Below, piece by piece: positions 46,683 to 52,071 of a stretch of DNA of 64,000 nucleotides. A program made the position numbers and the translations under genes. Each line of letters opens with the position of its first letter. The first letter of the stretch is position 1. The notes under the pieces were generated by a model. The model was not told the origin of the DNA. It did not search any database and saw only the letters and a list, made by a program, of their open reading frames with translations. The stretch is from Halobacterium jilantaiense (GTDB lineage: Archaea > Halobacteriota > Halobacteria > Halobacteriales > Halobacteriaceae): assembly GCF_900110535.1 (NCBI RefSeq), contig NZ_FOJA01000001.1:1302001-1366000 (forward strand), given 5' to 3'.

Positions 46683-46907
46683 GGACGCTGTCGGGGCGGC
46701 GAGAAGGACGGGGCGGGGCAGCCGGGGCGTCGAGCGCTGCCGCTGTCTGCCGACCCCCCGGAAAGAACTCGGGTACCCCTACCCGGCGGCTGTCCTTGTG
46801 AACCGGGCCGGTAAATGTCTTGTCAGACTCTCGGGGTTCGGGCCGCAGATTCCTATCGTGTGAGAAACGCGCCAGAACGTAAGCCCGGGGGACGGGAATC
46901 GGCCCGC

Positions 46908-47615
46908 ATGGACGACGGTCGCGACCGACACAGCGGAACTCCGACGGGGAGCCGGCGAGCCGTCCTCCGGTCGACGGTCGGCGTGGCAGCCGCCGGCTCG
47001 GTCGCCGGCTGCCTCGGCGTCCTCGGCGACGACTCGCCGACGGTGTTGAGCGAACCGGACAGACAGTTCGACAGCGGCGACCTCCCGTACCCGGCGTGGG
47101 GCGAGCGCGTCCCCGACGTGACTGTGCCGGCACCGCTGTCGGGCGGCGAGGTCGCCACGCGTGACGTGGCGGAGCCGGCGCTGTACACGTTCTTCTACAG
47201 CCACTGCAACACGGTCTGTCCGGTCCTGATTTCGACGATGCGGAACGTCCAGACCCACGCCGCCAACGAGGGGTACGCCGACGAGGTGTCGCTGTTCCCG
47301 GTGACGTTCGACCCGGAGCGGGACACGGCCGACCGGCTCGGCGAGTACGCCGGCGAGATGAACGTCGACGCCGACGCCGACAGCTGGACGTTCCTCCGGC
47401 CGGACGGACCCGAGCGCGCCGACGCCGTCGTCTCGGACGCGTTCGGCGTGACGTTCCAGCGCACGCACCCCGACGACATGGACGCGTACATGTTCACGCA
47501 CTCGGCACTGACGTTCCTCGTGAACGGCGACGGCTACGTGGAACGCGCCTACCGGTCGAAAGCGCCGAACGAGGACCAGATACTCGACGACCTCGCGGCG
47601 GTGAGAGACGCGTGA
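46908..47615 (+). CDS. SCO1/SenC family lipoprotein (copper/thiol chaperone)
   Basis: Tat-exported lipoprotein of 235 residues. The signal has SRRAVLRSTVG and a lipobox cysteine at C35. The SCO motif is CNTVC (C100, C104) in TFFYSHCNTVCPV, with the conserved distal histidine in MFTHSALTFLV. SCO1 proteins deliver copper to, or reduce thiols in, the CuA site of cytochrome oxidase. It heads an operon with a TlpA-like thioredoxin and a CcdA-like membrane protein that overlap by four bases each. GAACGTAAG about 27 bases upstream supports the ATG at 46908. Confidence 0.88.
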   Translation: MDDGRDRHSGTPTGSRRAVLRSTVGVAAAGSVAGCLGVLGDDSPTVLSEPDRQFDSGDLPYPAWGERVPDVTVPAPLSGGEVATRDVAEPALYTFFYSHCNTVCPVLISTMRNVQTHAANEGYADEVSLFPVTFDPERDTADRLGEYAGEMNVDADADSWTFLRPDGPERADAVVSDAFGVTFQRTHPDDMDAYMFTHSALTFLVNGDGYVERAYRSKAPNEDQILDDLAAVRDA

Positions 47616-48148
47616 AACGGCGGCAGGTCCTCGGAGCGCTGGCGGGCGCTGGCCTGACCGGCGGCAGCCTCTGGGTCGCCCGGAACGGCGTCCCGCGTCC
47701 CGGTGGGAGCGACAACGACCCGGCCGGGCTGCCCCGGGAAGTCGAGACCCTCGACGCGCCCGGGTCGACCGCGGGCACCGCGACCGTCCCGCGGCCCGGG
47801 ACGCCGACCGTCGTCGACCTGTTCGCGACGTGGTGTGCGCCCTGCGACGAACAGCTCGCCGAACTCCGGGCGGTCCACAGCGACTACCCCGAGGTGGCGT
47901 TCGTCTCGGTGACGAACGAGCGCGTCGGCGACACACTCACCCGGACGGACATCGCGGACTGGTGGGCCGACAACGGCGGCGCGTGGCCCGTCGGCATCGA
48001 CCCCGGCAGCGGACTGCTGGCGGCGTTCGGCGCGAGCGCGCTGCCGTACGTCGCCGTCGCCGACGCCGACGGCCGCATCGTCGCCGAGTACAGCGGGGTC
48101 GCCGCGGCGAATGCCCTCCGGGACGACCTCGACACCCTCGACGCATGA
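47612..48148 (+). CDS. TlpA/ResA-like membrane-anchored thioredoxin
   Basis: Protein of 178 residues. It has an N-terminal twin-arginine/anchor segment (MKRRQVLGALAGAGLTGG) and an outward-facing thioredoxin domain. The active site is WCAPC in VDLFATWCAPCDEQLAEL, and the cis-proline loop is ASALPYVAVADADG. It would reduce disulfides outside the membrane, taking electrons from the CcdA-like partner downstream and passing them to SCO1 or apocytochromes. The start GTG overlaps the SCO1 stop as GTGA. Confidence 0.85.
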   Translation: MKRRQVLGALAGAGLTGGSLWVARNGVPRPGGSDNDPAGLPREVETLDAPGSTAGTATVPRPGTPTVVDLFATWCAPCDEQLAELRAVHSDYPEVAFVSVTNERVGDTLTRTDIADWWADNGGAWPVGIDPGSGLLAAFGASALPYVAVADADGRIVAEYSGVAAANALRDDLDTLDA

Positions 48149-48816
48149 CCGCCAGCGCGTCGGTCGCGGGTGCCACTGCGTTCGCTGCGGGTACGGGCGT
48201 CGCGACGTTCTTCGCGCCGTGTGCGTTCCCGCTGCTGCCCGGCTACGTCGGCTACTACGTCGCCGAGAGCGACAGCGACACCGCCGTGCTGGCGGCCGCG
48301 GCCGCCGCCGCAGTCGGCGCTGTCACCGCGATTGCGGCCGTCGCGGGGCTGGTGCTGGCTGTCGGCCAGCCCGCCAGAGCCGCGCTCCCGGTGCTCGAAC
48401 CAGTCATCGGAGTGGGACTGGTCGGGTTCGGCGCGCTCGTGGTCGCCGGTCGCGGCCCACAGCTCCACGTGGCGCTGCCCGAACGGCCGTCGTCCGTACT
48501 CGGGTTCGGCGCGTTCGGTGCAGTGTACGCCGTCGCAGCCGCCGGCTGTGTCGTCCCGCTGTTCGTCGGCGTCGTCGCGCAGGCGCTCGCGCTCCCGGCG
48601 GCCGGCGCTACCGTAGTGCTCGGTGCCTACGCCGGCGGCGTCGCAGCCCCGCTCGTCGGCGTCACGCTGCTGGCGGGCGCGGGCGTCGAGGCGTGGCGAG
48701 ACCTCGGCGCGCACGCCGGCAGCGTCCAGCGGGCGGCCGGCGCTGTGATGGTGCTGGCCGGCCTCGGCCAGCTCTACCTCTCTGTCGTCGAACTGAACGT
48801 CCTCGGCGTCGCGTGA
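48145..48816 (+). CDS. CcdA/DsbD-like transmembrane electron carrier
   Basis: Membrane protein of 223 residues with about six helices. The two reactive cysteines expected of CcdA are visible: FFAPCAFPLLPGYVGYY near residue 27 and AVAAAGCVVPLFVG near residue 136. It transfers reducing equivalents from cytoplasmic thioredoxin (for example the protein at 13409) to the extracellular TlpA-like domain upstream. The ATG overlaps the preceding stop as ATGA. Its stop lies 9 bases from the convergent P1B ATPase stop. Confidence 0.85.
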   Translation: MTASASVAGATAFAAGTGVATFFAPCAFPLLPGYVGYYVAESDSDTAVLAAAAAAAVGAVTAIAAVAGLVLAVGQPARAALPVLEPVIGVGLVGFGALVVAGRGPQLHVALPERPSSVLGFGAFGAVYAVAAAGCVVPLFVGVVAQALALPAAGATVVLGAYAGGVAAPLVGVTLLAGAGVEAWRDLGAHAGSVQRAAGAVMVLAGLGQLYLSVVELNVLGVA

Positions 48817-48825
48817 GCGCGTCGG

Positions 48826-51114
<2,289 letters not shown>

Positions 51115-51182
51115 TATCTGGAGATAGCGGACGCGGTCTTATGAAGACTACTGCTATGAACCCGGGTTCTATTGAATATGAT

Positions 51183-51209
51183 TAACAACGAATTCGGATT
51201 GAGTTGTTA
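51183..51209. promoter_or_regulatory. NikR-type operator A (upstream of P1B ATPase)
   Basis: Perfect inverted repeat TAACAAC-N13-GTTGTTA, located 69 bases upstream of the ATPase start and beyond its probable TATA box (51137-51148). Half-site sequence and spacing are identical to operator B. Its position upstream of the TATA element would suit activation, or roadblock of a farther promoter. Confidence 0.78.
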
Positions 51210-51351
51210 ACTCGGGCGTCCGGTGAGTCCGCGAGCCACTGACGGAGGCCTTGCTCCCAACCCGCGACAACCCCGGACATGGAGGCGTTCGTCGCCGAGA
51301 ATCCTGCACTAGCAACTTGGGACGCTCACAGCCGAAATCGATAGGATAGTT

Positions 51352-51378
51352 TAACAACTCGTAGCGCCCGTGTTGTTA
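51352..51378. promoter_or_regulatory. NikR-type operator B (over nikR promoter)
   Basis: Perfect inverted repeat TAACAAC-N13-GTTGTTA from inside the nikR TATA region (AGTTTAACAA) to two bases before the ATG. A dimer or tetramer bound here would block TBP and the transcription start, giving autorepression. The 27-base extent is close to the 28 bases of the E. coli NikR operator. Confidence 0.82.
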
Positions 51379-51379
51379 C

Positions 51380-51808
51380 ATGAGCGTCGTCAGCGTCTCT
51401 ATGCCAGAGGAACTGCTCGAACGCATCGACGAGTTCTCCGAAGACCACGGCTACACCGGCCGCAGCGAGGTCGTCCGGGAAGCCAGCCGGAATCTGCTCG
51501 GCGAGTTCGAGGACAAGAAACTGGAGGGGCGCGAACTGATGGGCGTCGTCACGGTGGTCTTCGACTACGAGACGACGACCGTCGAGGAGAAGATGATGCA
51601 CCTCCGCCACGAACACGAGGACCTCGTCGCGTCGAACTTCCACAGCCACGTCGGCGGCCACCACTGCATGGAGCTGTTCGTTCTGGAGGGCGGTCTGGAG
51701 GACATCTCGACGTTCGTCGGGAAGATTCGCGCCACCCAGGACACGCTCACCATCGACTACTCGGTGCTGCCCGTCGACGACTTCGGCCCGCTGGCCGACA
51801 TGGACTAG
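51380..51808 (+). CDS. nikR: Nickel-responsive regulator NikR
   Basis: Ribbon-helix-helix regulator of 142 residues. The DNA-binding part is residues 1-45 ([30 protein letters not shown], read in parts). The C-terminal ACT-like domain keeps every high-affinity nickel ligand: H77, H88, H90 and C96, each offset by one from E. coli H76, H87, H89 and C95 ([14 protein letters not shown]). It should bind DNA when nickel-loaded. It is divergent from the P1B ATPase rather than from a nik ABC importer. Two identical operators flank the intergenic region. Confidence 0.93.
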
Positions 51809-51834: not shown

Positions 51835-52071
51835 TCAGGCGTCGCAGGCGACCCAGTGGCTGCCCTCGTTGGCGACCAGACCGTCGTCCCGGAGGTCGGG
51901 CAGCACGCGCAACAGCGTGAGGAACGGCAGTTCGAGGTCTGCTTTGAGTTCGTCGAGCGTCGCGCCGCCCTGCACGGCGAGGTAGAGGTAGACGAGTTTG
52001 CGGCGGTCGGACTCGATGTCGCGGACTGCCGACAGCACACCGGCGGTCTGCTCCAGCTGACTGGCGCTCAT
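51835..52071 (-). CDS. Small winged-helix protein
   Basis: DNA-binding-like protein of 78 residues, essentially one winged helix: QLEQTAGVLSAVRDIESDRRKLVYLYLAV, then GATLDELKADLELPFLTLLRVLPDLRDDGLVANEGSHWV, each read in parts. It resembles TrmB/ArsR-type folds without an effector domain. The leaderless ATG at 52071 is fixed by a strong TATA element TTTTTATTATC at 52092-52104 (minus strand). It converges with nikR, 26 bases from its stop. Target unknown. Confidence 0.75.
   Translation of the reverse strand: MSASQLEQTAGVLSAVRDIESDRRKLVYLYLAVQGGATLDELKADLELPFLTLLRVLPDLRDDGLVANEGSHWVACDA

Follow-up and report, generated by a model that had tools for sequence, protein, structure and literature searches.

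The locus

The window, i.e., the whole stretch of DNA that was analysed, is 64,000 nucleotides of the Halobacterium jilantaiense genome. Within it are found a ‘nikR’ gene and the gene for a P1B ATPase, transcribed divergently, with two copies of an inverted repeat lying between them. These copies are described here as ‘site A’ (toward the ATPase) and ‘site B’ (toward nikR). Features are as follows, with numbering that of the window:

48826 to 51114, minus strand: P1B ATPase, 762 aa, with HMA domain and P1B-2 (ZntA-like) signature CPCx4SxP, N-x7-K, DxG-x7-N
51138 to 51145, minus strand: ATPase TATA box, TTCATAAG, at -31 to -24 from the ATG, a position conserved in start-codon alignments
51151 to 51155, minus strand: AGCAG block directly upstream of the ATPase TATA box, kept in ATPase and CDF promoters
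51183 to 51209, no strand: site A, at -95 to -69 of the ATPase, with 37 bp between its near edge and the ATPase TATA box
51350 to 51355, plus strand: TATA-like TTTAAC in the promoter of nikR, lying in part within site B, assigned from its position at -30
51352 to 51378, no strand: site B, at -28 to -2 of nikR, overlapping TATA to start, a position expected for autorepression
51380 to 51808, plus strand: NikR-family regulator, 142 aa, RHH plus NikR_C, assigned by domain search and ligand residues

Beyond nikR there is a small winged-helix-like ORF (51835-52071, minus strand; 78 aa, no Pfam match), which adjoins nikR also in TGN-42-S1 and salinarum. Downstream of the ATPase is a cluster encoding SCO1-like, thioredoxin-like and CcdA/DsbD-like membrane proteins (46815-48818, plus strand), and a SCO1-like gene is found near nikR in several other species as well.

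The regulator and the ATPase

The regulator exceeds domain cut-offs for both PF08753 (75.7 bits) and PF01402 (29.0 bits), and its H77, H88, H90 and C96 correspond to the ligands H76, H87, H89 and C95 of the E. coli protein, a nickel-ligand quartet that is kept in 88 of 88 relatives. With curated equivalog models it is narrowly over threshold for NF002815 (85.3 versus 83) and under threshold for TIGR02793 (73.3 versus 175) and NF003381 (83.6 versus 105). In a phylogenetic tree it is found on a long branch within a separate haloarchaeal clade (support 100/99) and does not group with characterised NikRs, with those of E. coli, Pyrococcus and Helicobacter, and canonical-looking haloarchaeal NikRs as well, all falling apart from it. 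As this tree carries long-branch warnings and is midpoint-rooted, it can be read for distance but not for exact ancestry.

The H. jilantaiense genome has one NikR gene, and nikR is present in 253 of 255 good genomes. Within Halobacterium, nikR comes in two sequence types (92-94% and 72-75%), single copy each and interchanged between species, hinting at replacement of nikR by gene transfer. In many species, as at L107, L108, L110, L111, L113, L118, L124 and L128, this nikR has an SsuABC/TauABC-like transporter after it and, beyond that, another NikR-like gene, of about 41% identity. Loci with nikR and such a transporter often have CbiM-type genes, a neighbourhood unlike that of the window.

The ATPase has the CPC in TM6, N-x7-K in TM7, DxG in TM8 and HMA CxxC of P1B-2 (ZntA-type, Zn/Cd/Pb) enzymes, and is above cut-off for TIGR01512 (515 bits) and TIGR01525 (590 bits). 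Assignment instead to the P1B-4 (Co/Ni) ATPases was rejected, as these require SPC in TM6 where CPC is found.

Two identical putative operators

Sites A and B are both TAACAAC-N13-GTTGTTA with zero mismatches, that is, with all 14 half-site positions identical, and their spacers are unlike each other. Shuffles of the window give 0.07 matches expected by chance at three or fewer mismatches. Across the 2.95 Mb genome the two sites are the sole matches at two or fewer mismatches, the reversed-pattern control giving zero. At three mismatches the whole genome yields four further matches, which is below the reversed-control number, and a degenerate TAAYAA-N15-TTRTTA search at one or fewer mismatches returns sites A and B alone, with no larger regulon seen. 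The original prediction, which was of two identical NikR-type operators joining nikR to an efflux ATPase, was correct with regard to the exactness of the pair, to NikR-type geometry (a 27-bp inverted repeat with N13), and to the partner genes, which are indeed neighbours.

Conservation across haloarchaea

Nearly all of some 100 haloarchaeal nikR genes have a palindrome in register at -28 to -2 of their upstream sequence, in forms that include TAATATTT...GTTGTTA and TAATAG...GAGTTATTA. Eight other Halobacterium species have a different-looking nikR half-site, TATTACTCGA...TCGATTAATA, with their ATPase site still TAACAAC-like; both of their sites score well with both of the matrices described below. 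Site B may be viewed, by its conservation, as a putative autoregulatory operator to which the regulator is predicted to bind. As site B spans TATA to start, such binding should therefore block the nikR promoter. Where the left half is degenerate (TAATATTT), as at many loci, an additional half-site-like ATAAYAAT is seen 11 bp before it, at approximately -39 to -33 of nikR, and this is perhaps a third contact.

The adjacency of nikR and the ATPase is restricted to three Halobacterium species, i.e., that of the window, TGN-42-S1 and salinarum, all with site A at -95 and with A-to-B spacings of 169, 662 and 318 bp. The site also is possessed by Halobacterium ATPase orthologues for which nikR is far off, and indeed by all Halobacterium short-form ATPases that are readable in that frame, nikR adjacent or not. 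Outside of Halobacterium it is found at -92 to -98 in most of the ATPase promoters examined, over many genera, and these include ATPases extended by some 100 residues at the N terminus. Site A appears to be a conserved, putative exporter operator, and the selection on both sites that had been proposed is borne out by this constancy of position. ATPase neighbourhoods elsewhere display no recurrent adjacent regulator gene.

That the nikR and ATPase sites represent one motif can be seen by using either to find the other. With a matrix built from 58 ATPase sites from outside of Halobacterium, the top-ranked position is -28 for 91 of 98 nikR upstream regions. When a palindrome is made from the right halves only of nikR sites, and is for that reason TATA-free, it finds -92 to -96 in 52 of 66 ATPase upstream regions. 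A spacer of N13 is clearly best, with scores dropping sharply at other lengths. Held-out Halobacterium genes, i.e., those outside of the training set, have the site at -28 of nikR (13/13) and at -95 to -98 of the ATPase (12/12), or 25/25 together. These results bear on whether the palindrome might be an artefact, with an AT-rich TATA box and initiator mimicking an inverted repeat within a GC-rich genome. The left half of the nikR site does overlap TATA, as such mimicry would have it. Site A, however, lies well away from TATA, the ATPase sites can be located with nothing more than the TATA-free right half, and both spacer and null controls argue against mimicry, which is refuted for site A and overall is scarcely credible.

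Enrichment of the motif is positional rather than residing in raw counts. In a scan of 293 genomes the near-exact motif is no more numerous than its reversed control, so that counting over genomes, the check which had been suggested, is not diagnostic. The 29 near-exact loci from that scan include four ATPase promoters, four nikR promoters and three CDF exporters.

CDF exporters and promoter geometry

The operator is present at 28 of 31 loci of exporters which we take, from sequence, homology and the known features of the family, to be CDF proteins, versus 24 of 468 other upstream regions (Fisher 3e-28). These CDF targets look to be zinc-type relatives. In one genome (L390) the CDF gene is directly 3' of nikR, and in two small-genome species (G012, G039) nikR has the site and the CDF gene is without it. 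Searches of the H. jilantaiense genome found no CDF of the operator-bearing type and no CbiM-type importer.

The distance from operator end to TATA box is 37 bp for 50 of 61 ATPases, while the distance from TATA to ATG varies, and it is 37 bp for all 24 of the 24 CDF genes with a recognisable TATA box. Operator and TATA centres are about five helix turns apart at exporters. Such fixed phase upstream of BRE and TATA suits an activator-like contact with the transcription machinery, as judged from position only. The ATPase TATA box, found at -31 to -24, suggests an mRNA that is leaderless or short-leader. The AGCAG block (tagcagctgaattaataa) precedes TATA in ATPase and CDF promoters of other haloarchaea too; it is unlike the usual haloarchaeal BRE and perhaps is a BRE nonetheless.

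Proposed mechanism and its alternatives

We consider it likely that a single, autorepressing NikR-family regulator (51380-51808) controls divalent-metal exporters by way of these predicted operators, and that it probably activates them. A metal-loaded tetramer would sit on the operator with one RHH dimer per half-site. At site B that tetramer would cover TATA to start and so repress nikR itself. At site A it would instead be positioned upstream of BRE and TATA, on a fixed helical face, there helping TBP/TFB or RNA polymerase to start ATPase transcription, with excess divalent metal exported as a consequence. Candidates for the metal sensed are Ni, Zn, Co and Cd. Autorepression via site B and possible activation via site A had both been suggested previously: the positions fit, and it is from position only that we infer the sign of action.

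From a different perspective, the same protein might repress at both sites, at site A either by keeping an activator away or by action over a long range, with metal releasing it much as it does ArsR/SmtB-type efflux repressors. The nickel regulators of exporters named in one review are in fact all derepressed by metal, with NikR described there as a metal-dependent corepressor of import (PMC7055735). A fixed gap between operator and TATA is typical instead of activators, however, and site A, since it ends 37 bp before TATA, does not block TBP/TFB. Looping between sites A and B was considered and rejected, as the three spacings are not conserved, which makes a conserved repression loop unlikely. 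Repression at both sites strikes us as quite improbable.

Alternatively, a different transcription factor might bind all of the sites, those of nikR included, such that NikR is merely a target. Here the strongest contrary fact to NikR control is G264, a genome 99% complete and lacking this nikR clade, which keeps a near-consensus ATPase site; G086 (89% complete), with no nikR detected, has a perfect one. Taken as natural knockouts, the nikR-less genomes comprise two that are incomplete, two with degenerate sites like those of nikR-bearing relatives, and G264. The winged-helix-like ORF adjoining nikR in three Halobacterium species could be offered as the other factor. Against such a factor are a nikR site at -28 nearly everywhere, which is the usual sign of autoregulation, the 27-bp inverted repeat with N13, which is known NikR signal geometry (PMC545781), the lack of any regulator gene recurring beside ATPases, and the near-constant presence of nikR itself (253/255). 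We hold its involvement to be highly doubtful.

A last alternative concerns not the regulator but its metal. The original prediction, in full, was of a nickel-specific sensor paired with a nickel-efflux ATPase. Consistent with this are the conserved NikR ligand set and the nickel sensitivity of a delta-zntA Halobacterium NRC-1, as given where a review cites Kaur et al. (PMC3600143), with zntA not being equated here with the nikR-linked ATPase. The same review nevertheless has the mutant sensitive to Zn, Cu and Cd as well, and the P1B-2 Zn/Cd signature, the zinc-type CDF targets and the distant NikR clade all point away from nickel specificity. A dedicated nickel-efflux circuit now seems rather unlikely. 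The label ‘nickel’ is based on family name and ligands only, with the targets looking Zn/Cd-type.

Implications

NikR is usually taken as the standard example of a repressor that shuts off nickel import in response to metal, and here conserved putative operators tie a NikR-family protein to export pumps and not to any CbiM-type importer. The proposed regulon would be a novel variant for an already known family of regulators. Judging from the sequences compared, the architecture is haloarchaea-wide and inclusive of CDF exporters, and the earlier interpretation was right on operator and partner and too narrow on metal and scope. A broader proposal, about which we are evenly divided, is of a haloarchaea-wide NikR subfamily that has moved from repression of nickel import to sensing of divalent-metal overload (Zn/Cd/Co/Ni). 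This subfamily would activate P1B-2 ATPase and CDF genes from an operator exactly 37 bp upstream of TATA, and repress itself via the same operator, as a position-dependent archaeal metal switch. If true, then a regulator of zinc/cadmium-type efflux in haloarchaea can be named, promoters of this kind become predictable from their code (operator, 37 bp, TATA), and there is a compact example in which a single archaeal factor represses or activates according to its position and nothing else. NikR is classed in review among the repressors of import genes (PMC7055735), so that a regulon of exporters would depart from this. Our literature search found no haloarchaeal link between NikR and exporters and no published description of one, and a Cu/Ni proteome paper on H. 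salinarum R1 mentions neither NikR nor ZntA.

Comparison with known systems

A close parallel is Helicobacter pylori NikR, which has the same RHH plus NikR_C fold and, as in the predicted operators of the window, AT-rich half-sites separated by some two turns of the helix (TRTTA-N15-TAWTA; PMC5385501). This protein activates ureA when bound upstream and acts as a repressor at sites that overlap the promoter (PMC4464171), a position dependence of sign that we infer for the window regulator as well. Bound at the promoter, H. pylori NikR represses nixA among other genes. Its targets, however, are uptake, storage and urease genes rather than P1B or CDF exporters, and the window protein belongs to a separate haloarchaeal clade.

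With regard to the operator itself, those of E. coli and delta-proteobacterial NikRs (GTATGAT-N13/14-ATCATAC and GTGTTAC-N13/14-GTAACAC) are, as in the window, 27-28 bp inverted repeats with a spacer of 13 or 14 (PMC545781), and the window operator is close to the reversed-orientation form of D. psychrophila, GTAACAC-N13/14-GTGTTAC. The window operator differs in its half-site, TAAYAAC, and the predicted targets of the window regulator are exporters and itself rather than importers.

Canonical haloarchaeal NikRs (e.g., L003, L008, L017) share the NikR_C family and the order of organisms with the window protein, but are just 26-31% identical to it. Canonical genes at L003, L008, L014, L017 and L028 have their own upstream palindrome, TAATACT-N12-AGTATTA, and two NikR types with different operators therefore coexist in haloarchaea. 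The pairing of a metal sensor with a P-type ATPase exporter, lastly, is known from the Ni/Co-sensing NmtR-NmtA of M. tuberculosis (PMC7055735). NmtR is an ArsR/SmtB repressor that is released by metal, and so it differs from the window regulator in both fold and logic.
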